Origin: Prevotella sp. | GTDB taxonomy: Bacteria > Bacteroidota > Bacteroidia > Bacteroidales > Bacteroidaceae | NCBI GenBank assembly: GCA_017623155.1 | Contig: JAGAPR010000003.1 | Span: 1-64,000 of the forward strand | DNA length: 64,000 nt | Direction: 5' to 3' | Program-made: the position numbers and the translations under genes | Shown here: positions 7,666-28,063 of the stretch, piece after piece | How positions within the stretch are numbered: the first letter of the stretch is position 1 | How the letters are laid out: each line of letters begins with the position of its first letter | The notes under the pieces: generated by a model | The model's database searches: none | What the model was told of the DNA's origin: nothing | Seen by the model: only the letters and a program-made list of their open reading frames with translations

Positions 7666-7738
7666 GGTGCCATAGCTCAGTTGGTAGAGCAAAGGACTGA
7701 AAATCCTTGTGTCCCCGGTTCGATTCCTGGTGGCACCA
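7666..7738 (+). tRNA. tRNA-Phe (GAA), integration target
   Basis: Acceptor GGTGCCA / TGGCACC. Anticodon stem GGA/TCC region with loop CTGAAAA, anticodon GAA. T arm CCCGGTTCGATTCCTGG. Its last 18 bases (7721-7738) lie inside the 21-bp direct repeat that recurs at 28043-28063, so the integrated element restored the tRNA 3' end on integration and the gene stays intact. Confidence 0.97.
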
Positions 7739-7741
7739 CTT
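7721..7741 (+). repeat. attL (21-bp direct repeat in tRNA-Phe)
   Basis: Identical to 28043-28063. It covers the T-arm 3' half and the acceptor 3' strand plus 3 bases beyond the tRNA. Confidence 0.93.
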
Positions 7742-7984: not shown

Positions 7985-9220
7985 ATGAAACGAGATTCAT
8001 TCAAAGTGCTTTTCTTTCTCAAGAAAGCCAAACTGCTGAAAAACGGAGAAGCCTCCGTGTGTATGCGCATCACGGTGAACGGTGCACGAGTGGAAACCAA
8101 CATCCGCAAGAGTATCGACCCGGCTTTGTGGAATCAGGCGAAGGAGTGCGCCAAAGGCAAGAGCCGCAAAGCCTGCGACCTGAACGCCTACATCGAGGAC
8201 GCGAGAATCAAACTCCACCAGCTATTCAACGAGATGGAGGAGCAGGGACAGCTCATCACCGCCCGCATCTTGCAGGAACGCTTCTTTGGTCAGGACAAGG
8301 AACCCGAAGCCGTCCGTACCATCATCGGCACCATGCAGGAGCACAACGACCAATGCCGCGCCCTCGTGGGCAAGGACTATGCCCTCATTACCATCCGCCG
8401 TTATGAAAGTTGCAAGCGTTATCTGGCGGAACTTATCAAGCAGAAATACGGAAAAGAAGATTTACCCTTGATAGAGGTCAATGGCGAACTGGTACGTGCC
8501 TTTGAGTTTTACCTCAAGACAGAAAAAGAGTGCCAGCAGAATACCGTTATCCGCTACATGAAGTGTCTGAAGAAGATAACCAACCTCGCCCTTGCCAACG
8601 AATGGATAACCAAAGACCCGTTCATCGGAATCAAGTTCCACGAGAAGGAGGTCATCCGTGAATTCCTGACAATGGATGAACTGCTCACCATATACAAGAA
8701 GGAGCTCTCATTGGAGCGCATCACCGTTGTACGCGATGTTTTTATTTTCGCCGCCTTCACAGGACTGGCTTTCATAGACGTGCAACAACTCGTACCCGAA
8801 CACATCGTCGAAGACCAAAACGGAAACCTTTGGATTCGCAAGCCTCGCCAGAAAACAAAGAACATGTGCAACATCCCACTGCTTGACATCCCGATGGCCA
8901 TTCTCCGTAAATACGCAACACATCCTACTTGCCAAAAGAAAAATGTGTTGCTACCTGTTCCCTGCAATCAGAAAATGAACAGTTATCTGAAAGAGATTGC
9001 TGATTTATGCATGATAAACAAGACCTTGACCACACATACGGCTCGGCATTCGTATGCAACCTCTGTCTGCCTCGCCAACGGTGTGAGCATTGAGAATGTG
9101 GCCAAGATGCTCGGCCACTCTAATATCAAGATGACCCAGCACTATGCACGTGTATTGGATTCCTCCATCCTGCGCGATATGAACAATGTAAAGAACATGA
9201 TGGCCAAAGTAATGGGATGA
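7985..9220 (+). CDS. int: Tyrosine site-specific integrase
   Basis: Catalyses integration and excision at tRNA-Phe. The 411-residue protein has an N-terminal arm-binding domain (KAKLLKNGEASVCMRITVNG), a SAM-like core-binding domain (about 110-205) and a catalytic domain. The catalytic His-x-x-Arg-His is H351, R354, H355, and the nucleophile is Y387 in HYARVLD. The usual box-I arginine (TGLR) is replaced: the sequence reads TGLAFIDV. Loss of that arginine is known from Bacteroides integrases of the IntDOT type. It lies 250 bp inside attL, and its stop overlaps the next gene by 4 bp. Confidence 0.95.
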   Translation: MKRDSFKVLFFLKKAKLLKNGEASVCMRITVNGARVETNIRKSIDPALWNQAKECAKGKSRKACDLNAYIEDARIKLHQLFNEMEEQGQLITARILQERFFGQDKEPEAVRTIIGTMQEHNDQCRALVGKDYALITIRRYESCKRYLAELIKQKYGKEDLPLIEVNGELVRAFEFYLKTEKECQQNTVIRYMKCLKKITNLALANEWITKDPFIGIKFHEKEVIREFLTMDELLTIYKKELSLERITVVRDVFIFAAFTGLAFIDVQQLVPEHIVEDQNGNLWIRKPRQKTKNMCNIPLLDIPMAILRKYATHPTCQKKNVLLPVPCNQKMNSYLKEIADLCMINKTLTTHTARHSYATSVCLANGVSIENVAKMLGHSNIKMTQHYARVLDSSILRDMNNVKNMMAKVMG

Positions 9221-11596: not shown

Positions 11597-11663
11597 CTCG
11601 CAGGGAAGACATCCCGTTGGTCTATAACTACTATAATCAGCAATCAAAGTAAACTTGATAATC

Positions 11664-12020
11664 ATGAACAGCAATAAGAAAAAGAACAAAGGCGGTCGCC
11701 CGGTCAAGGGTGCAGCCGAGAAATTGAAGTATCGCATCACGGTGAAGATGGCAACGGAGGACTACTATCTGTTGAAGTCCAAGGCGAAGTCGGCTGGAGT
11801 ATCAGCAAGTGAGTTCATTCGTGGCTGCATCTCGGAGGGCGGAGTGAAGGAACGGCTCTCGAAAGAACATGGCGACCTTATCCGCAAGCTATGTGGCATG
11901 GCGAACAACCTAAACCAGTTGGCGCGGAAGGCGAATGCGGAGGGCTACGCTTCTGTGTTTGTTCCCTGCCGCACCCTGATGATAGAGATGGATAAGCTTG
12001 TAAACCGGATACGCCTATGA
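11664..12020 (+). CDS. mobC: Mobilization relaxosome protein, MobC family
   Basis: 118 residues from MNSNKKKNKGGRPVKG. A further in-frame ATG at 11655 would add 3 residues. It has a basic N terminus, then a ribbon-helix-helix-like segment (YRITVKMATEDYYLLKSKAKSAGVSASEFIRGCI) and the MobC signature region (IRKLCGMANNLNQLARKANAEGY). Helps the relaxase recognise and open oriT. It overlaps the relaxase start by 4 bp, so the two are translationally coupled. Confidence 0.9.
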   Translation: MNSNKKKNKGGRPVKGAAEKLKYRITVKMATEDYYLLKSKAKSAGVSASEFIRGCISEGGVKERLSKEHGDLIRKLCGMANNLNQLARKANAEGYASVFVPCRTLMIEMDKLVNRIRL

Positions 12021-12940
12021 TAGCAAAAATCATGAAAGGCTCAGACTTTCGAGGCGTAGTGAGCTACATCCTGAACGATGAGAAAGGCACTCAAATCATA
12101 GATGCAGACGGCTTATTTCTGGAAAATAACGACACGATAGCACAAGGATTTATCGGCCAAGCGCAGATGAATCCAAAGGTGACAAAGGCCGTAGGTCACA
12201 TCGCTCTGAGTTTTTCCAAAGAGGATGCGCCACGGTTGAACAACGCAATCATGGCTCAGATAGCCCGTGAGTACATGGAGCGGATGGGTATTAAGGAGAC
12301 GCAGTACCTCATTGGGCGGCATTTCGACAAGGAACATCCACACGTGCATATCGCCTTCAACCGCATCGACAATAATGGCAAAACCATATCCGACCGAAAC
12401 GACCGCTTCCGCAGCGAGCGTATTTGCAAGGAACTAACCCGGAAATACGGACTTCACTTCGCCAACGGCAAGGAGCAGGTGAAGATGGACCGATTGCGAG
12501 AACCGGACAAGACGAGGTATGAACTCTATCAAATCTTGAAAGCGGAAGTCGGTAGATGCAAGGATTGGCAGACCTTGCTTGACCGATTGGAACGGCAGGG
12601 TGTAGGAGTGCAGTTCAAGTACAAGGGGCAGACGGATGAGATTCAAGGCATCGTCTTCTCAATGAATGGCTACCGCTTCAACGGGTCCAAAGTTGACAGA
12701 CAATTCAGCTACTCCAAGATTGATGCAGCACTAAACCGTAACAACTACGGAGAACGACAGACACAACCTCAGCCACAGGCTAATCGGGAAGAAATAAGCC
12801 CGACTTCAAGCAACGATGTCGAGCTTATCAGCGGCTCATTAGGTTTGCTCACTCCAAGCAACGCACCGGAAGAACAGCAACTTTACGACCCCTATCTGAG
12901 AAATAAGAAAAAGAAGAAACAACGTAAAATCAACTGGTAA
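12017..12940 (+). CDS. Relaxase (MobA/VirD2-type)
   Basis: Nicks oriT and pilots the single strand. In the 307-residue protein, the metal-binding histidines are H107, H109 and H111 (EHPHVHIAFNRID). A likely nicking tyrosine is Y17 in RGVVSYILND. The MOBP-type fold extends to about residue 150. The rest is a basic C terminus ending in a run of lysines (NKKKKKQRKINW). Compact compared with plasmid relaxases but normal for Bacteroides mobilizable elements. No coupling protein or mating-pair genes are nearby. Confidence 0.93.
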   Translation: MIAKIMKGSDFRGVVSYILNDEKGTQIIDADGLFLENNDTIAQGFIGQAQMNPKVTKAVGHIALSFSKEDAPRLNNAIMAQIAREYMERMGIKETQYLIGRHFDKEHPHVHIAFNRIDNNGKTISDRNDRFRSERICKELTRKYGLHFANGKEQVKMDRLREPDKTRYELYQILKAEVGRCKDWQTLLDRLERQGVGVQFKYKGQTDEIQGIVFSMNGYRFNGSKVDRQFSYSKIDAALNRNNYGERQTQPQPQANREEISPTSSNDVELISGSLGLLTPSNAPEEQQLYDPYLRNKKKKKQRKINW

Positions 12941-19139: not shown

Positions 19140-19637
19140 TCAACCTTCGGAATAAGTGGATTCAGACTCTGCAGCCACAAGAATATCCGGTTCTTCAACA
19201 GAATATCTTTTAACGGTAGAACACGTTATATCATTAAAGAGTTTGTTCAATGCCGCCTCCCGGTTGCTTTTATTGCGGAGTTCACACTCCCAAATACTGA
19301 TTACTTTCCAACCAAGAGCGGTCAAGGCTTGTGTTGTCTCCTTGTCGCGTTCAATGTTCCGCGTAATTTTAGCCTCCCAAAACGGAGTATTGCTTTTGGG
19401 CAGTCTGAAATACTTGCATCCTTCATGACCATGCCAAAAGCAACCGTCAACGAATATGACGGTCTTGTATTTTTTTAATACAATATCCGGTGACCCAGGA
19501 AGTTTCCTGTTGTTCAGGCGATACCGAAGCCCCTTGCTGAACAAGAATTTCCGCACCAAAATCTCCGGCTTGGTATCCTTGCCCCTGATGGCCGCCATAC
19601 AGCGACTCCGTTGTTCGAGTGTCATCACATCAGTCAT
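19140..19637 (-). CDS. vsr: Very-short-patch repair (Vsr) type endonuclease
   Basis: 165 residues of the Vsr superfamily: RSRCMAAIRGKDTKPE, LPGSPDIVL with the catalytic D51, FVDGCFWHGHEGC and GWKVISIWECELR. Known role of Vsr: nicks at T:G mismatches produced by deamination of 5-methylcytosine. In operons with GHKL ATPases, members are proposed to act as restriction nucleases. The His equivalent to E. coli H64 is Asp here, while H69 is kept. Its start overlaps the receiver-protein stop by 8 bp. Last gene of the Dcm-GHKL-receiver-Vsr operon. Confidence 0.93.
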   Translation of the reverse strand: MTDVMTLEQRSRCMAAIRGKDTKPEILVRKFLFSKGLRYRLNNRKLPGSPDIVLKKYKTVIFVDGCFWHGHEGCKYFRLPKSNTPFWEAKITRNIERDKETTQALTALGWKVISIWECELRNKSNREAALNKLFNDITCSTVKRYSVEEPDILVAAESESTYSEG

Positions 19638-21294
19638 CTTCCTTATTTGGATAATGTGGTAAATCTATCCCCATTCTTTGTGCATGGGAAAACGCATAGT
19701 TTATCAAACGTTGGGTATATTCGATTTTTTGATTGCCTAAAAATAACAATTCGTTATTTTTCCCATTACTTAACAGTACTCGTATAGGATGATTAACATA
19801 AAATTTCTTTTGTGATTCAATATGGATTGTAAAAAAATGATGAGTCCATTCAATTGCATTTTCAGAAGAAACAAATGAATACCATTCTCTTTCTGTAGCA
19901 GTGAGTGCCCGTCTCAAATCAGCCTTGTGCCCATGTAAAAACGCATAGTTGTGATAAACTTTTTGCGGCCTTTTACAATCACAAGATTGAGTTATACATA
20001 TAATATATTCCTCCTTCCCATTTTCTGGGTGATAAGGATTGGACAAAGCAAAAATGTCACCTGTCTGAATTGTATGTATATCTTCTAACTTATTTTTGTC
20101 AGTAAATGTCAGAAAACAGTTTAGATTGCACAAATCCCGATCGGATGGAATTTCATTTCCTGCATCTATCTTAAATAACTTATGAATATCATCCTTCCCA
20201 ACATACGAGAGCATAGAGCTTTTTAATAGACCCATTGTGCAATTAGAGAAGTATTGAATGAATTCATCTGTGTTATCGTATGATTTTGCGTGGTAAGCCA
20301 ATGCTTTTTCGTTAATACTTCCAAGGTTTTTACCCCATTGAGCAATCTCATCATTCATCACGTTTTTCAAAAGAATAGAAAAGATAAACGTTCTGATATT
20401 CTTTACTTTTGAAACGGAATCTACAATCTTGCTAAAAACATCTTCAGGCGCGACAGAATTCGGAATCAAATCTCCGTTTGGGGCAATATTTTTTTGAAGA
20501 ACGATGACAATAGTGTTGTCAATGTGAATTGAATATGGCGTTAATACAGATATTTCATAGACATTACGTGAATAAATGGTAGAAGAATTCTGATTACAAA
20601 AGTCTAGCCAACACATTGCATCAGAGGTATTGTTAAATCCTTCTTTTTGTACGATTTCGTTTATCATACGACACAATTTGCCTTTCAAAGCAGAGGTCAT
20701 CCTAATGCCCAACTGCTGGTTGAGAGATTTCTTAATTTCTTTTTCTCTTTCTGGATTTAGAGCAAATCCAGAAACTTCCCTTTTAATCAATTCCCAAATC
20801 TTGTCTCCATCGTCATCTAAAGAATTGACTTCACAGAACTCTTCAAGTTTTTCTAAAATATCATTTTCAACGGTGCAGAATTGCTGTTTATATTTTGAGA
20901 AATAATGCATAATTGCTTTGACAATATCCTCAATAGATGGACTTTGGGTATAGATGACAACATATCTTAATGATTTGCAGGTTACGCCACTCTCTATAAT
21001 TTTTAACGTATCCTCATATTTGATTTTAGCATTAGGACATAATTCCCAATCAACAATTAATAAATCTCTATTCTTGAATAAAGTTGGAAGTATAGTGTCT
21101 GTTCCTTCTTTATTGATATAATGAAATACATCAAGATTGCATGCGTGAAAATTCCTAAAGTTTGCACACATGGATTGGGGAATTTGAATATTTCCATTCT
21201 CATACTCATACGGTGCACAAAATTCATCATCAATACATATTGCATTACTGATTGATGACGAAATAATTTCCTTTATTCTATCGTTGCCTATCAT
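19630..21294 (-). CDS. Receiver-domain protein of the restriction/defence operon
   Basis: 554 residues. The first ~125 residues look like a CheY-type receiver: acidic pair D22-D23 in ICIDDEF, candidate phosphoacceptor D82 in DLLIVDWEL, and T116 in YVVIYTQS. The conserved receiver lysine was not confidently located. The middle (about 130-390) is helical without a recognised family. The C-terminal domain has a Cys motif QSCDC (436-440) of unknown meaning. It overlaps the GHKL gene by 4 bp and Vsr by 8 bp, so the operon is tightly coupled. It is the natural partner of the histidine-kinase-like domain encoded just upstream. No DNA-binding output domain was recognised. Confidence 0.65.
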   Translation of the reverse strand: MIGNDRIKEIISSSISNAICIDDEFCAPYEYENGNIQIPQSMCANFRNFHACNLDVFHYINKEGTDTILPTLFKNRDLLIVDWELCPNAKIKYEDTLKIIESGVTCKSLRYVVIYTQSPSIEDIVKAIMHYFSKYKQQFCTVENDILEKLEEFCEVNSLDDDGDKIWELIKREVSGFALNPEREKEIKKSLNQQLGIRMTSALKGKLCRMINEIVQKEGFNNTSDAMCWLDFCNQNSSTIYSRNVYEISVLTPYSIHIDNTIVIVLQKNIAPNGDLIPNSVAPEDVFSKIVDSVSKVKNIRTFIFSILLKNVMNDEIAQWGKNLGSINEKALAYHAKSYDNTDEFIQYFSNCTMGLLKSSMLSYVGKDDIHKLFKIDAGNEIPSDRDLCNLNCFLTFTDKNKLEDIHTIQTGDIFALSNPYHPENGKEEYIICITQSCDCKRPQKVYHNYAFLHGHKADLRRALTATEREWYSFVSSENAIEWTHHFFTIHIESQKKFYVNHPIRVLLSNGKNNELLFLGNQKIEYTQRLINYAFSHAQRMGIDLPHYPNKEDD

Positions 21295-24188
21295 AATGTA
21301 ACAGAATTAAGTTTAATAATAAAACATGCTCCATCAAGACGATTATACCTGGGATCATTACTTGCAGAAATGTCCATACCGATGCTTTTTAGACTATTTT
21401 TAGCCAAATAAAGTCCGATTCCCCTGCCATTGTGTTTCCTGGTGAAAAACAATGTAAAAATGTCATTTATGATGGTATCGTCTATTCTCTCTCCGTTATT
21501 CATGATTAGCATCTCTTGAGAATCTTGGAGATATTCAAGTCTTATCATTCTGTTGGCAGAGGGAATTAACCAATAAAGGGCATTGTTAATAATATTTATA
21601 AATACTGAGTAAATTACAGACTCATAAGTAAAAAACTCGTAGTTATCAAACATATCTGAAGACTCAATGGTTACATCTAAATCTTTTATTTTTTGACTGA
21701 AGAATGTATTCATTGATTTTAAAATATGTTTTCCAGTAAAAATCGTACGTTGTTTCTTGGCAGAACGATACAAAGGCTGAAGCATTTTGTAATTAGCCTC
21801 CATATGTTCGAAGGCTACAGAAAGTTGCTTGTATTGGGATGAAATTTCAATATGGTTATGTGAGTATTCTTTGAAAAATTTTAATGAGTTCGCAATCTGG
21901 GCATGAAGGGAGTATAATTCATGATCAATTATTTCTGCTGAAATTCCTAGTTGAGCCAATTCATTTGTGGCATCAAGCCTTTCTTCCAACTCCTGATATT
22001 TTGATCGATACCATTCTAATATGACTTCCTCATCAATATCAAGAGACAAAGATTCTATGTGAGAAACAAATGGCAAAAATAGATTATCTATCTTTGCTCG
22101 AATATCTTCTCGGTAAAGAACTATCTGCTTGATTGCTGCTTCATACTCGGATGGTAAGTTAAGAGACGGTATCGTTTCCGAAACCATCTGTTTAAATTGC
22201 TCTGAGAAAGCATGGCCCTCATTAGATATCATTGCCTTATGAGCATCAGCAATAGAGATGATTCTTGATATATACTGATTAATTGACGTTGAAATTTCCC
22301 GTAGGGAATATACATACTGATTCTCAAAATCTTTTTTGAGACTCTGTACGTCAAAGCGCTTACGTATTTGTGCTATTACCTCTTCGCAAAGTCCGAAATT
22401 ATTACTTAGCGTAGTGTAATTCATTTGATATTCTGCGAACTTTCGCTCTTGAGTAGATGACAAAGACACATGCTTGGGAGTGGTAAGTTTTAACGAGCGC
22501 AACTTATCCCTTTTACTCAAAAGAGAGTTGCTAAGTTCCAGATATTGCTCGTATGTTAAATTTATCAGCTCTGCTTTCTTCGTAAGTTCTAATTGAAGAG
22601 CGGAAATTTCCTGATTAATGGTTTCTATTTCCTCTTGATTGGCTTTAAGTTGTTTGGTGAAGTTCGCCTTTGTCTGACGGTTCCGTTTCTTCTCAGCTTC
22701 AAGAATTGCATGATGCTTTCGTTGGATAGCGTCCAACTGCTCAGAACGAGCATTTACTTCATCAGACTCTGTTGACCTTAAAAATCGCTTGGCGATGTCA
22801 ACAAACAAGGCGATAAGATCCTCCTTGAGTTCTCTATAGGCTTTATTCTCTATGAGACCTTCGCGACCAGCTTTATCTTTCAATAAAGGGTTCGCATTTC
22901 GTGTTATGGAGATATAACCGAACATATTTCTGTGGCTAAAGAAATAGTAGCCTGCTTTTTTGGATCGGCGCTCCTCAAATTTTAAGAAGTCATAATCTGT
23001 CCTGCCGTATGGCAAGACTCTAAAACAATCTCGATATATATATAAACCTCCATATTTTGCTGTCTTGGATGAAATAAAATCATATTGTTCCGCTGTTAAC
23101 ATTGATGCTTTGGAAGCACCTTCCATTTGGCCCAGTTCGATATCCAATGGACCATAAGGGGTGTTGCCCGGCTTCCGTATCGGCCGAAACGAGTAAGAAT
23201 ACGTTTGCCCGAAAACACGGATTGTGCCATTAAACATCCCGTTCTCGTCAATTTTACCCCTAATATGGTGATCTGCAAATTTGAAATCGTCTGGATCAAA
23301 GAAATCGCTAATTATATTGTATTTGCCACTCTCGTTCAAAACATTAAATGAGGTTGAGAAGTCGGGAGTGTCTTTAAACACATTAAAAATACCTGTAAGA
23401 GAACGTTGGATTTCAAGCAAAGAGGCATTAGAGTCTTCCAAAGGAGAAAAGTCGACCAAATCTAAAAGTTGTTCATTGGGATTGCTTATAATAAATTTTG
23501 TCCCATGATTTAATGGATTAAGGAAGGCTTGAGAGAAATCAAAAAGTAAGCTATCTGGGAGATAAAAGGAAGTAACGTCATGGATTATCTGATTTTTTAA
23601 TTCTTCTTGCCCATTCCAAATCGGGTCGGACTCCTTGTTTGTGCTAAAATTCTCAAGAAATTCTGCTTTCATTTCAGAAATCAGAATTTCTAAATTTGCA
23701 CTTCCATCAAAGGAATGACAAGGAATATTTACTTCGTCAATAAACAGATTGTAATTTTCAAGAATCCTCCAATCGATAAATACTGCTTGACAAACTTCTT
23801 CCTCTTTCTTTGTCAGCATTAGCATGGGAGAACCAAGATAAGCAACTGATAAACGTCCAATGCCTTTCTCTCCCATTGGTATACGTTGTTGTAATCCGAA
23901 TGTTTGAATTGACGTACAACTTTGAATCCCCCTTGATTTGGAGTCTGTCCCAAGAACAATCCATTTTGTAACTATATCATTATAGTTCATTCCCCATCCA
24001 TCATCGGAGAGACAGAATAAAGGTTCCTTTATATCCTTATATCCAGGAATATATAAATCACAAGAAAGGTTCTTTGCATAGGCATCGTATCCGTTCTTCC
24101 ACAGTTCGGATATTGCTGTAGGCAAATCTGCGATTTGCCCTTTACCTAATAGCTCTACGGCTCTTGCTTTAGTTTTAAAATTAGCCAT
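21291..24188 (-). CDS. Dual GHKL ATPase: MORC/Hsp90-like plus histidine-kinase-like
   Basis: 965 residues from MANFKTKARAVELLGKG. This ATG overlaps the methyltransferase stop and is preferred to an ATG 11 codons upstream. The N-terminal GHKL ATPase has N-box E28-LWKNGYDA with N32, D62-DGWGM and G106-EKGIGRLS, as in MORC/MutL/Hsp90 proteins. A transducer-like region (about 200-480) and a coiled coil (about 481-569) follow. The C terminus is a second GHKL unit of kinase type: an H-box-like IIDHELYSL with H756, N-box INNALYW (N868, N869), NNG at 897-899, and GRGIGLYLAKN from G921. Having both classes in one chain is unusual. Adjacent to a receiver protein and to Vsr. Confidence 0.85.
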   Translation of the reverse strand: MANFKTKARAVELLGKGQIADLPTAISELWKNGYDAYAKNLSCDLYIPGYKDIKEPLFCLSDDGWGMNYNDIVTKWIVLGTDSKSRGIQSCTSIQTFGLQQRIPMGEKGIGRLSVAYLGSPMLMLTKKEEEVCQAVFIDWRILENYNLFIDEVNIPCHSFDGSANLEILISEMKAEFLENFSTNKESDPIWNGQEELKNQIIHDVTSFYLPDSLLFDFSQAFLNPLNHGTKFIISNPNEQLLDLVDFSPLEDSNASLLEIQRSLTGIFNVFKDTPDFSTSFNVLNESGKYNIISDFFDPDDFKFADHHIRGKIDENGMFNGTIRVFGQTYSYSFRPIRKPGNTPYGPLDIELGQMEGASKASMLTAEQYDFISSKTAKYGGLYIYRDCFRVLPYGRTDYDFLKFEERRSKKAGYYFFSHRNMFGYISITRNANPLLKDKAGREGLIENKAYRELKEDLIALFVDIAKRFLRSTESDEVNARSEQLDAIQRKHHAILEAEKKRNRQTKANFTKQLKANQEEIETINQEISALQLELTKKAELINLTYEQYLELSNSLLSKRDKLRSLKLTTPKHVSLSSTQERKFAEYQMNYTTLSNNFGLCEEVIAQIRKRFDVQSLKKDFENQYVYSLREISTSINQYISRIISIADAHKAMISNEGHAFSEQFKQMVSETIPSLNLPSEYEAAIKQIVLYREDIRAKIDNLFLPFVSHIESLSLDIDEEVILEWYRSKYQELEERLDATNELAQLGISAEIIDHELYSLHAQIANSLKFFKEYSHNHIEISSQYKQLSVAFEHMEANYKMLQPLYRSAKKQRTIFTGKHILKSMNTFFSQKIKDLDVTIESSDMFDNYEFFTYESVIYSVFINIINNALYWLIPSANRMIRLEYLQDSQEMLIMNNGERIDDTIINDIFTLFFTRKHNGRGIGLYLAKNSLKSIGMDISASNDPRYNRLDGACFIIKLNSVTL

Positions 24189-25227
24189 TATATTCGTGTT
24201 GTAATACCAAGAGAAGTTCACCTAATCGACGGGCATATTCTGGAGGTACGGCGTTGCCTATAATTCGTGCATTTACGGTCATATTTCCTCCTTTGAAAAC
24301 ATAGGAATCTGGAAATGTCTGAAGTCTAGCGCCTTCCCTTATAGAAAGACCTCTATTTTCGCAAGGATGTGCAAACCTTCCGCTTGTAATCTTAATAAAA
24401 TTGGTTGTAATAGTGGATGATGGGCGATTCCAGCGCAAACGGCCATACACATCACGAAAGCTATTGTCCCTTCCAATATAACATTTCAGTTGTAATTCCT
24501 CATCATCTTTCCATTCCATTCGCGATCCGCCATTTTTAGATGTCCTTAGGAGACGTTTCATGTTAATGGGTGCTAATCTCATTGTGGAATGCATGAAATC
24601 GGTAGGATCGATGTGCCCCGCCGGAACGTTTTTTAGCCCGCGTTTTGTCCCAATAAACTCGGATAGAAGTTTCGGCCGAGAATCTTTCTCTGGCATTCGT
24701 ACTTCACCTAAGCGAGATGCAACCAATGAAAAACGACGACGTGTTTGTGGCACGCCATAGTAGGACATGTTGACGACGTCATATTTGACTTGGTAATCAT
24801 GAGTAGCTAAAAATTGAATGAATTCAGGAAATGCACTATCTTCTCGGGACAAAAGACCTGGGACATTCTCAACAAGAATGAATCCCGGATTATAATATTC
24901 CACAAACCTCATAAAATCCAATAATAGGTCTTTGGACAATTTCGACTTTTCCCTTGTGGTATTAATTATGCTATAGTACTGACAAGGACTACATCCGACA
25001 AACAGCAACTCATCATCGTTTCGTAGTACCCCTAACTCCTTCTCAAAATAGTTTAGTGGGAGTCTTTTGATGTCTGCACACACAAATCTAGCCCCAGCGT
25101 TGTTGAACTCATAGGTTGTTCTACAGTCCTGCGCAAGGTCTACGCCAGCAACGACCTCAATGCCTGCATTGCGAAGACCATAGGTCATTCCGCCGCCGCC
25201 ACAAAAGAAGTCTATTGCCCGTATCAT
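24181..25227 (-). CDS. dcm: C5-cytosine DNA methyltransferase
   Basis: 348 residues with the full set of m5C-MTase motifs: motif I DFFCGGGGMTYGL, motif IV GCSPCQ with catalytic C82, motif VI ENV (120-122), motif VIII QTRRRF (161-166) and motif X ARIIGNAVP. The target-recognition region lies between VIII and X (about 190-290). The specificity is not deducible. First gene of the four-gene operon. It would protect host DNA, with GHKL, receiver and Vsr as the effector side. Its promoter box TAACTTTG lies at 25263-25270 (minus strand). Confidence 0.97.
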   Translation of the reverse strand: MIRAIDFFCGGGGMTYGLRNAGIEVVAGVDLAQDCRTTYEFNNAGARFVCADIKRLPLNYFEKELGVLRNDDELLFVGCSPCQYYSIINTTREKSKLSKDLLLDFMRFVEYYNPGFILVENVPGLLSREDSAFPEFIQFLATHDYQVKYDVVNMSYYGVPQTRRRFSLVASRLGEVRMPEKDSRPKLLSEFIGTKRGLKNVPAGHIDPTDFMHSTMRLAPINMKRLLRTSKNGGSRMEWKDDEELQLKCYIGRDNSFRDVYGRLRWNRPSSTITTNFIKITSGRFAHPCENRGLSIREGARLQTFPDSYVFKGGNMTVNARIIGNAVPPEYARRLGELLLVLQHEYNG

Positions 25228-25270: not shown

Positions 25271-25386
25271 CAAATTTAATTTGATACGAGGATGCTTTTC
25301 AATCACATTGTCCTAAATATAAGTAAATCATATGCATACTTTTGCTATATTGCGTGACAAGCATGACTATTTTGCGACTAAATCAC

Positions 25387-25394
25387 TACCTTTG
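25387..25394 (+). promoter_or_regulatory. -7 element of the RhuM/PIN unit
   Basis: TACCTTTG, 31 bp upstream of the chosen RhuM start. It rules out the ATGs at 25342 and 25399 as starts, since transcription should begin near 25401. Confidence 0.6.
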
Positions 25395-25425
25395 CACGAT
25401 GAAGCCAATCATATCCATGATTAAA

Positions 25426-26406
25426 ATGAGCGAAGAAAATAAAATAATACTATATCAGGACGATGACGAGATAACTCGTGTGTCCGTTCGCTTTGCTGAC
25501 GAAGATTTGTGGCTAACACAAAACCAACTGGTGGAAATATACCAAACAAGCAAATCGAATGTAAGCGAGCATATTAAGCATATATTTGAGGATGGTGAGT
25601 TATCAAAGGGGACAACTGTTCGGAAATTCCGAATAGTTCGATTAGAAGGTTCTCGTAAGGTTGAACGAGAAGTGGACCACTATAACCTTGACATGGTTAT
25701 CGCTTTGGGCTATCGTGTGCAGTCGCAGGTTGCGACTCGCTTCCGCCGTTGGGCTACACAGCGGCTTCATGAGTATATTCAAAAGGGATTTGCGATGGAT
25801 GATGAGCGGTTGAAGCAAGGAGGTAATCGGTATTTCCGTGAGTTGCTGCAGCGTATCAGAGATATTCGTAGTAGCGAGCGTAACTTTTACCAACAGGTGA
25901 CGGACATCTATGCCACAGCCACAGATTATGACCCACGGGACGAGATGACAAAGATGTTCTTTGCAACCGTACAGAACAAGCTGCACTACGCCGTCCATGA
26001 GAACACGGCAGCGGAGGTTATCTACAATCGTGTGGACAACGAAAAGCCGTTTGTAGGTATGACGAACTTCAAAGGCAACTATGTAACCAAAGACGATGTA
26101 AAGATTGCCAAGAACTATCTCTCAGAGATTGAACTGAAACGTCTTAACCTGCTTGTTTCCGGTTTCTTGGACTTTGCCGAGTTCCAAGCATTGGAAATGA
26201 ATCCCATGACGATGAAAGATTGGATAGAGGCATTGGACAATCAGATTATCGCTCACAAACGAAAGGTCTTAATTGGCAAGGGGAACATTTCGCATAAGCA
26301 AGCGGTTGAGAAGGCGGAAAAGGAGTTTGAAATCTATCGCAAGCGCGAAATGGAACTGCTTGAAAGCGATTTTGATAGAGAAATCAAGAAGCTGAAAGAT
26401 AAATAG
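25426..26406 (+). CDS. RhuM family protein
   Basis: 326 residues from MSEENKIILYQDDDEI. An ATG at 25417 would add 3. Full-length RhuM-type protein: N-terminal winged-helix-like region (WLTQNQLVEIYQTSKSNVSEHIKHIF, YNLDMVIALGYRVQS), a conserved central part (MFFATVQNKLHYAVHENTAAEVIYNR), and a basic helical C terminus. Named from a Salmonella pathogenicity-island gene; the biochemical function is unknown. RhuM genes are frequent in defence and mobile islands, often beside restriction systems. 13 bp upstream of the PIN-like gene, so the two form a unit. Confidence 0.85.
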   Translation: MSEENKIILYQDDDEITRVSVRFADEDLWLTQNQLVEIYQTSKSNVSEHIKHIFEDGELSKGTTVRKFRIVRLEGSRKVEREVDHYNLDMVIALGYRVQSQVATRFRRWATQRLHEYIQKGFAMDDERLKQGGNRYFRELLQRIRDIRSSERNFYQQVTDIYATATDYDPRDEMTKMFFATVQNKLHYAVHENTAAEVIYNRVDNEKPFVGMTNFKGNYVTKDDVKIAKNYLSEIELKRLNLLVSGFLDFAEFQALEMNPMTMKDWIEALDNQIIAHKRKVLIGKGNISHKQAVEKAEKEFEIYRKREMELLESDFDREIKKLKDK

Positions 26407-26419
26407 ATTCAATACGCAT

Positions 26420-27805
26420 ATGGTTACCATATATTTTGACAAACAACTTTTTAGTCATCTGTTTAAATCGCAAGAAGAAAAATATCTTGCTTTGCGTAAG
26501 AAAATACTGTCTCATCGTGACGAGTTTATTTTCCTGTATTCAAATGCTCATTTACTCGACCTTCAGCAGGATACGACTGACATTAAGTATGACGAGATGG
26601 ATTTCATGCAATCTATTGTGGATGGTAATCATATCTTTTATGAATCTCCTAATATTGGTGTCATAAAAGAGTCACCACGTTCCGCGTTTAATAATGTAGC
26701 GAAAGTTGATGATTTTTCTTGGCTTTACGAACTTGATTTGTCGCAGATTACAGAAGAACAATGTGATGCCATTAATAATATAATAGACATATCCATCAAA
26801 GATTTAAGAGGAGAATTGGAGTTTGATTGGTTGAAGAAAAGGACTCCGATACGTTCAAAAGAACTTGCAATAGATAAAGAAAATCTTATCTCATTCGTAA
26901 AACTTGTAAAGGACAATTTTTACGAGGATAAAAATTCATATAAGAACATCAGGGATAATGCTGTCAAAAGTTACAACCCAACGTTAATAACTTCGGACTG
27001 TGAAAATGTTTTCAATGAGCAACTGGAAGCGGCTCCATTAAGGTTATCTTTTATAGAAACGATTAAAGCTGTCATAAACCAATTTGGTCTTAAATCATCT
27101 GACGCGACTATTGTATATTATGTATCCTATATGCTCCTTGATTTACTTGGAGTTAGTAAGGAAACTCGAAGGAAAGTTAAGTTCCGTAATATGCAAACTG
27201 ACTGTATGCATAGTTTCTTTGGTTCATATTGTGATTGTTTCGTAAGTGACGATGCGGGTATACTCAAAAAGAGTAAAACGTTATACAAGCTCTTTAATTT
27301 TGAGACCAAAATATATTCAATAGATGAGTTTATTCAGACATTTGATGAAGCGATAAATAACAATCAGAAACATGTATCTGAGTATTTTAAAGAAATCTGT
27401 ACAGACTATGAGAAAAAAGAGGTGATATGGGCTGAATCGCTTACTCAATATACATTGACTCAATTACGCGCTTCCAACATCTATTTTGGCTATTTTAATT
27501 ATATGTCGGAACGAACATCAAAAGATGAAACGGTTATAATACTTCATAAAAACAAAAGAGCAAGCCAACTGTTACTTATTCAAGAAATAGAGATTGTTGT
27601 TAACAGGCTCGTGCGTTCTTTTAATGAAATAGGGGCAACTTTTTCTCTGTTCAATAAAGATGTGGAATTTTCACAAATGCGGACAGGCAATTGGAATAGG
27701 ATTCTAAAATTAAACGATGCGGATATTTGCTTAACGAATGCCCAAGATCCTTTTATGCTTTATTTATGGATAAATGTTAGGCATCCTGTGTCTATCCAAT
27801 CGTAA
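26420..27805 (+). CDS. PIN-like nuclease domain protein, hypothetical
   Basis: 461 residues, no family recognised with certainty. Features suggesting a PIN-like RNase fold: D7 in VTIYFDKQLFSHLF, SNAHLLDLQQD at about 40-52 as the second acidic site, and near residue 270 the segment CDCFVSDDAGILKKSKTLYKLF, which resembles the last acidic strand and helix of PIN domains. The rest is mostly helical. AT-rich like the other cargo. Co-directional with RhuM and last gene before attR. A toxin or RNA-cleaving effector is a reasonable guess, not shown. Confidence 0.5.
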   Translation: MVTIYFDKQLFSHLFKSQEEKYLALRKKILSHRDEFIFLYSNAHLLDLQQDTTDIKYDEMDFMQSIVDGNHIFYESPNIGVIKESPRSAFNNVAKVDDFSWLYELDLSQITEEQCDAINNIIDISIKDLRGELEFDWLKKRTPIRSKELAIDKENLISFVKLVKDNFYEDKNSYKNIRDNAVKSYNPTLITSDCENVFNEQLEAAPLRLSFIETIKAVINQFGLKSSDATIVYYVSYMLLDLLGVSKETRRKVKFRNMQTDCMHSFFGSYCDCFVSDDAGILKKSKTLYKLFNFETKIYSIDEFIQTFDEAINNNQKHVSEYFKEICTDYEKKEVIWAESLTQYTLTQLRASNIYFGYFNYMSERTSKDETVIILHKNKRASQLLLIQEIEIVVNRLVRSFNEIGATFSLFNKDVEFSQMRTGNWNRILKLNDADICLTNAQDPFMLYLWINVRHPVSIQS

Positions 27806-28042: not shown

Positions 28043-28063
28043 CGATTCCTGGTGGCACCACTT
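28043..28063 (+). repeat. attR (21-bp direct repeat)
   Basis: Perfect copy of 7721-7741, a fragment of the tRNA-Phe 3' end without the rest of a tRNA. Marks the right end of the integrated element. Confidence 0.93.

Follow-up and report, generated by a model that had tools for sequence, protein, structure and literature searches.

A probable modification-coupled defence operon of Prevotella run by a two-component phosphorelay, with Vsr as a candidate repair accessory

We describe a four-gene operon in a 64,000-nucleotide stretch of contig JAGAPR010000003.1 from Prevotella sp. (GCA_017623155.1, an assembly of 2.74 Mb in 104 contigs); this whole stretch is called the window, and the coordinates of its features are positions within it. 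The operon lies on the minus strand and encodes, in this order, a Dcm-type C5-cytosine DNA methyltransferase, a protein with two GHKL ATPase modules, a response-regulator-like receiver protein and a Vsr mismatch endonuclease. Based on the observed genes, their order, domain families and predicted folds, on the conservation of the phosphorelay residues and on the exchangeable genes found downstream in related loci, we consider it probable that the operon serves defence, is coupled to DNA modification and is controlled by a two-component phosphorelay, with Vsr as an accessory for the repair of damaged 5-methylcytosine (m5C). Sequence and predicted fold lend good support to the two-component reading itself.

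The genes for Dcm (24181..25227, 348 amino acids), the dual-GHKL kinase (21291..24188, 965 amino acids), the receiver protein (19630..21294, 554 amino acids) and Vsr (19140..19637, 165 amino acids) overlap successively by 8, 4 and 8 bp, the arrangement that the original prediction, made from the letters of the DNA, had described. These overlaps assume that the kinase starts at an inner ATG (base 24188), which is M12 of a 976-residue open reading frame (ORF) beginning with a GTG at 24221 and overlapping Dcm by 41 bp; the inner ATG agrees with the family consensus start. Residues N32, D62, G106 and H756 of the 965-residue form correspond to N43, D73, G117 and H767 of the longer form, whose numbering we use below. 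Family models identified all four proteins above the curated cut-offs. Dcm matched the Pfam family DNA_methylase (172.9 bits) and the dcm model TIGR00675 (124.5 against a cut-off of 100.65), the kinase matched HATPase_c_3, HEF_HK and HATPase_c (42.2, 77.3 and 39.5 bits; cut-offs 25, 24.1 and 26.4), the receiver protein matched Response_reg_2 (81.3 bits; cut-off 27), and Vsr matched the Pfam family of that name (118.6 bits) as well as TIGR00632 (157.7; cut-off 97.85). Apart from Vsr, these scans recognised no dedicated restriction endonuclease gene among the four operon genes.

We compared the window with 63 further loci from a scan of genome contigs, chosen by the receiver gene alone. In 63 of the resulting 64 loci a kinase ORF lies directly upstream of the receiver gene, and in the remaining one (L065) the kinase is followed by a receiver gene split into two ORFs. 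A Dcm gene is found upstream in 54 loci. Five of the ten loci lacking it have less than 600 bp of upstream contig (L043, L057, L069, L071 and L072), L079 carries Dcm tail to tail, L077 and L080 are apparently broken, and L050 retains only a kinase fragment. With such counts the genes are not neighbours by chance, as the original prediction had required. The tenth locus, L073 (7230-10217), shows a kinase-receiver pair with no Dcm within 2.5 kb upstream and with an Eco57I-type N6 methylase downstream. Across 44 loci the median identity between pairs rises from 0.28 in the receiver protein through 0.43 in the kinase to 0.54 in Dcm, and the N-terminal GHKL region is the most conserved part of the kinase (0.70). 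Response_reg_2 scored above its cut-off in 9 of 395 genomes of the phylum, the window's own included. Matches to this family (PF19192) below the cut-off (L011-L019) were set aside; the two inspected, L011 and L014, are ordinary response regulators.

For residue conservation we aligned 52 of 54 kinases together with that of the window (n=53). The N-terminal part of the kinase (residues 12-492, 22746..24188, minus strand) combines a GHKL ATPase with an S5-type transducer module, the hallmark of MORC and paraMORC proteins, and the C-terminal part (residues 734-973, 21303..22022, minus strand) comprises the DHp and catalytic regions of a histidine-kinase core, with the HEF_HK match spanning residues 757-822. 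Structure prediction yielded both a MORC-like and a histidine-kinase-core fold. The putative phospho-acceptor H767 (H756 from the inner ATG; 21921-21923, minus strand) is invariant in all 53 kinases and is placed in a DHp helix pair beside the CA domain, and the ATPase motif residues checked are likewise invariant, except for D74 (51/53). The predicted protein of 965 residues with two ATPase modules and an H-box histidine was recovered, and all three of its domain families scored above cut-off. The model of the BbrUII/HgiDII restriction enzymes (NF050001) stayed below its curated cut-off, with 45.2 bits against 550 and the N-terminal GHKL part alone aligned. The window kinase also matched three plasmid records; the one examined encodes a methyltransferase, an ATP-binding protein and a receiver in the order of the window.

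The receiver domain occupies residues 13-296 of its protein (20407..21258, minus strand). Our alignment comprised 56 of the 59 long receiver ORFs from the 63 loci, the window protein and four of the nine receivers from the phylum search (n=61). D22 and D82 are present in 61/61, an acidic residue at position 23 in 60/61, threonine or serine at position 116 in 61/61, and K268 in 57/61. K268, the switch lysine of receivers, had been missing from the residues listed originally (D22, D23, D82 and T116). The AF2 model (pLDDT 86.0, pTM 0.83) shows a receiver fold carrying these residues, so that the proposed CheY-like receiver was borne out; both this fold and DHp-like helices around the kinase histidine were predicted, the latter with low model confidence beside the histidine. 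In the model, a mostly helical insertion of about 120 residues lies between alpha4 and beta5, ahead of the switch lysine.

The receiver protein ends in a further domain (residues 397-535, 19690..20106, minus strand) that is beta-rich in the AF2 model and is marked by the motif GD...CITxxCDC...QRIAN...RVG, with G412, C438 and F452 invariant in the 61 receivers. Comparison with PDB profiles returned a best E value of 0.067 and no known family. A MazF/PemK-like fold was tried and rejected (hhalign against 12 PemK homologues, probability 0.3; controls Vsr 0.59 and Dcm 0.36). Pfam recognised no DNA-binding output domain in the receiver protein, and at the sensitivity used no relatives of it were found in viral contigs or plasmids.

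An alignment of 44 of 53 Dcm proteins with that of the window (n=45) covers the target-recognition stretch (residues 181-270) throughout. Conservation there is 0.32-0.59 per 15-residue block (mean 0.46), slightly below that of the whole protein (0.52). Since this stretch can be aligned over its full length, most of the family likely shares one Dcm target sequence, whatever the downstream nuclease. For Vsr, 15 of 19 proteins were aligned with that of the window (n=16), and four non-operonic Vsrs were left out. Residues 3-139 of the window Vsr align with E. coli Vsr (1cw0) and retain D51 and H69, which we take to be catalytic, the aromatic residues F67, W68 and W87, which presumably form the mismatch wedge, and D98. 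At the position of H64, which we also take to be catalytic in E. coli Vsr, the window protein has aspartate; among the 16 homologues including the window, H occurs in nine, N in four, D in two and Q in one. These features suit a patch-repair role at deaminated m5C more readily than restriction.

An operonic Vsr gene is present in 16 of the 64 loci, downstream of the receiver gene in ten and upstream of Dcm in six; in four further loci it sits outside the operon, on the opposite strand. A further downstream gene belongs to the operon in at least seven of the 16: one for an HNH protein (L052 and L082), a NOV_C protein (L044), proteins without a Pfam match (L033 and L049), a member of the same BLAST cluster as the L044 gene, assigned by that cluster (L074), or genes of the same clusters as a kinase/ORC-like pair in L024 (L039). 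In other loci the downstream slot holds HNH_2, HNH, NOV_C, AAA_15/AAA_21 ATPases or a DUF2357-PDDEXK_7 protein with an AAA ATPase (AAA_5 score below cut-off); Pfam was run here on cluster representatives rather than on every member. A fourth gene does not seem to be obligatory, because no same-strand gene follows within 150 bp in 27 of the 64 loci, an upper bound that includes four contig ends and stems from a simple ORF chain with a 150-bp limit, which small antisense ORFs can break (L028). Some arrangements in this slot are unusual. In L024 (10583-15411) the receiver is followed by a 405-residue protein of no known family and a protein of about 1200 residues with a Ser/Thr-kinase and an ORC-CDC6-like part, and L039 shows a similar arrangement with a 387-residue protein of no known family (L024 was the one scanned). 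In L051 (10570-15481) the receiver gene is followed by another Dcm-like gene, by one for an AAA ATPase and by one for a Schlafen/AlbA protein that carries a RecG-type ATPase domain.

Related pairs also accompany other DNA modifications. A profile of the C-terminal receiver domain matched 10 of 385 genomes of the phylum and 5 of 369 in the class of the genome carrying L068, and it revealed kinase/receiver pairs outside both Pfam families, HEF_HK and Response_reg_2. One such locus, L112 (131-4052), encodes a TSPPY-type methylase (PADLOC MTase_II, E 3e-15; no Pfam match), a dual-GHKL kinase and a 393-residue receiver; the same contig also holds, at a distance of 5.4 kb, a Dcm-HEF_HK-Response_reg_2 set, and no Vsr was matched in the DNA fetched. 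Three genomes of one genus (L113+L146, L114+L147 and L152) share a gene order consisting of SspB, SspC, SspD, PbeA, a PbeC/DndD-like ATPase, small genes, the dual-GHKL kinase and the receiver; of their kinases two were scanned, and HEF_HK was either missing or just under its cut-off. Such a phosphorothioation-type receiver matched seven plasmid records as a query, of which six were examined (H2 shares length and coordinates with H1), and tblastn found SspB, SspC and SspD homologues in all six. These genes directly adjoin the pair in H6 and H7; in H1, H3, H4 and H5 a distance of about 9-10 kb, occupied by FtsK/SpoIIIE and other genes, separates them from the pair, and they are partly on the opposite strand. 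A PAPS reductase is annotated in H1, H3, H4, H5 and H7, and DUF4007 in H1, H3, H4 and H5.

Altogether, nine loci (the three above, L153-L156, L158 and L159) have SspB, SspC and SspD within about 10 kb of the pair; as they were found through mutual similarity, nine of nine describes linkage among related loci and not a frequency. Both HATPase domains are present in 6/6 kinases scanned, and 5/5 plasmid kinases inspected have VAHEL or FIMHEL as their H-box. Response_reg_2 gave no match in the four receivers scanned, the six scanned kinases had HEF_HK below its cut-off or not at all, and neither Vsr nor Dcm was matched by tblastn within the DNA fetched for any of the nine loci. Divergent sets with Dcm exist as well: L123 shows the order kinase-receiver-Dcm-Vsr without a HEF_HK or Response_reg_2 match, and L121 and L122 represent divergent Dcm types, the latter with Vsr and NOV_C. 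The weak profile matches include L120, a partial ORF at a contig end, and L151, a fragment with two stops. The word "histidine" gave no match in the text available for PMC10853773 or PMC8092258, nor did "sensor histidine kinase" in the eight papers listed of 25, which is not proof that the Ssp link is unpublished. We see an even chance that the kinase and the receiver form a general immune module that reads the self mark irrespective of its chemistry, be it m5C, TSPPY-type base methylation or SspABCD backbone phosphorothioation, and whose output would run through the C-terminal beta domain, then a receiver output domain of a new type. We regard this possible reach across modifications as the stronger lead.

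From the observations in the window and its relatives we infer DNA sensing, the direction of the signal, a defence function and the roles of the C-terminal domain and of Vsr, and we propose the following mechanism. Dcm would mark the cell's own DNA with m5C. The GHKL protein would be a soluble histidine kinase with the MORC-like ATPase as its sensor, which probably works as an ATP-driven clamp on DNA. On unmarked or otherwise foreign DNA, a coiled coil would activate the C-terminal kinase, which would phosphorylate H767 and pass the phosphate on to D82 of the receiver protein. Phosphorylation may then alter the C-terminal beta-rich domain, which would execute or recruit restriction, and some relatives may add an exchangeable nuclease. 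Vsr would not cut foreign DNA but would repair the T:G mismatches produced by deamination of the Dcm mark. Several points weigh against this mechanism. Residue 768, directly after the phospho-acceptor, is glutamate in 37 of the 53 kinases and the acid is replaced by glutamine in 16; glutamine at this place is unusual for HisKA-type chemistry. Confidence in the histidine-kinase model is poor just where it matters most (pTM 0.56, pLDDT below 50 at residues 752-764), Foldseek taken alone gave the receiver model no match at E <= 0.001 in PDB or BFVD, and the C-terminal domain is without a known fold or catalytic motif. Both the loss of H64 in the window Vsr and the downstream position of Vsr in ten of 16 loci would also fit a role other than repair, and the adjacent McrBC-like genes described below could be the nuclease. 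Our search found no experimental paper on the kinase/receiver pair; subscription papers and most preprints lay outside it.

According to the original prediction, the phosphorylated receiver licenses Vsr as the restriction nuclease. The 8-bp overlap of Vsr with the receiver gene in the window and its usual place behind that gene are in line with this idea, as are the aspartate at the variable H64 position and the fact that L055, L060, L063 and the window's four genes have no other operonic nuclease downstream. However, 48 of the 64 loci have no operonic Vsr in the DNA available (some contigs end early, and four of the 48 have one on the opposite strand), six of the 16 operonic genes lie upstream of Dcm, Vsr stands alongside HNH or NOV_C genes in L052, L082 and L044, and the mismatch-repair residues other than H64 are kept. 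Moreover, the nine phosphorothioation-linked relatives yielded no match to either Vsr or Dcm in the DNA fetched. We set Vsr as the effector aside as the main reading and regard this explanation as very improbable.

It is somewhat less improbable, but still unlikely in our judgement, that the relay is only a switch and a separate nuclease cuts, namely a McrB/McrC-like pair in the window and HNH, NOV_C or PDDEXK proteins in relatives. The McrB-like ORF (18994-17042; AAA_5 in Pfam, weak match to a McrB model) lies on the same strand 145 bp past Vsr and is followed by the McrC-like ORF (17045-14811, minus strand; without a Pfam family above chance and named by position and sequence). In L070 from Bacteroides mediterraneensis, one of the nearer relatives, homologues of both are encoded next to Dcm on the other strand, and HNH_2, HNH, NOV_C or DUF2357-PDDEXK_7 genes fill the downstream slot of other loci. 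Yet phmmer found homologues of the window McrB and McrC in only two of the 64 loci, the window and L070; McrC homologues occur in five other genomes of the 390 searched, none of which has a Response_reg_2 match; and no downstream gene follows in the 27 loci counted above. The McrB start probably lies about 180 bp inside the listed TTG, which would widen the gap to Vsr. McrBC therefore seems to be an occasional companion and not a constant component, and as an obligatory partner it was not supported even though L070 shares it. The pair could instead be an R-M (restriction-modification) controller that tunes the expression or activity of the methylase and of any nuclease rather than triggering defence, in line with the Dcm gene upstream in most loci and with published speculation that R-M systems are governed by such signalling (Bellieny-Rabelo et al. 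2021, PMC8011034, as far as its accessible text goes). To this we give little credence, since the receiver protein has no DNA-binding output domain recognised by Pfam and the same kind of pair stands beside Ssp genes of a different chemistry. A phosphorelay that triggers defence, with Vsr in repair, remains the reading we prefer.

The operon is flanked by further defence-like genes. AbiH (14790-13849, minus strand, 170.8 bits) follows the McrC-like ORF. Divergent from Dcm, at 25342-27805, lie a RhuM-family gene (Virulence_RhuM 360.5 bits, PADLOC PDC-S05) and a gene for a 461-residue protein without a Pfam match. The McrC-like protein has 744 residues, and the matches in the five other genomes reach residues 1-561 at most, leaving a C-terminal extension of about 185 residues. 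All these genes lie between two copies of a 21-bp direct repeat (7721-7741 and 28043-28063) that corresponds to the 3' end of tRNA-Phe. A tyrosine-recombinase-like ORF (7985-9220) comes after the first copy, and relaxase-like ORFs (11655-12940) were named from the sequence by eye. Between 14 and 28 kb the G+C content is 0.32-0.47 per kb, and it is 0.49-0.60 in most kilobases beyond 33 kb. Because of the repeat copies, the integrase-like ORF and the low G+C content, the operon probably rides on an integrated element of about 20 kb. The pnp flank in four genomes of the same genus shows no tRNA gene nearby and no conserved junction.

If a phosphorelay does read the self-marking of DNA, R-M immunity would here be under ATP- and phosphate-dependent signalling and not a matter of fixed enzyme competition, and the MORC-like proteins of R-M operons would gain a testable role. 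Thanks to the phosphorothioation-linked relatives, the idea could be tested on two chemistries with nothing in common, and these relatives may hold a partner of Ssp defence that has gone unrecognised.

Among known systems, Detocs is a phage-defence system with a histidine kinase, two receiver proteins and an ATP-degrading effector; to our knowledge it has neither a DNA methylase nor a MORC-like sensor. The dcm-vsr pair of E. coli, which serves very short patch repair, resembles the window in that Vsr shares an operon with Dcm; the window adds the kinase and the receiver and has H64 replaced by aspartate. GrwAB of V. cholerae, whose paper mentions paraMORC, was rejected as a relative: it is an unrelated DUF262 system, and the paraMORC-like protein described there is a Shedu. 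Genes of the phosphorothioation defence system SspABCD, which acts with SspE or SspFGH, lie near the related kinase/receiver pairs, and FtsK-like genes occur in the plasmid loci; as far as the part of PMC8092258 at hand shows, the pair does not belong to the described SspABCD systems.

The closest counterpart is the two-component-like pair HEF_HK (PF19191) and Response_reg_2 (PF19192) of Bellieny-Rabelo et al. (2021; PMC8011034). In its accessible sections, that paper reports 91.6% linkage over 644 regions, cytosine methylases upstream, and Vsr genes in 20 genera, mostly adjacent to and downstream of the receiver gene, and it proposes a two-component-like system tied to R-M. The window agrees with this description in its domains, gene adjacency and upstream Dcm, and in the conserved His, Asp, Thr and beta5 Lys, and Bacteroides and Prevotella are among the genera listed there. 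The complete His-Asp pair that the original prediction saw in a methylase operon is thus supported by residues and folds, but its novelty is superseded because the pair had been described beside Dcm, with Vsr most often directly downstream. The same sections mention loop extensions of the receiver, beta5 being one of the places, and report that its protein has no further known domain; they do not describe the insertion of about 120 residues as such, the conserved C-terminal domain or the pairs beside Ssp or TSPPY genes, and relative to them the insertion and the domain are new. The operon likewise recalls the MORC/paraMORC ATPases of R-M operons with Dcm and Vsr (Iyer et al. 2008, PMC2292703). 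In the part of that study consulted, the N-terminal GHKL and transducer ATPase and the association with cytosine methylases and Vsr are shared, whereas in the window the ATPase shares its polypeptide with a complete histidine-kinase core and has a receiver as its partner.

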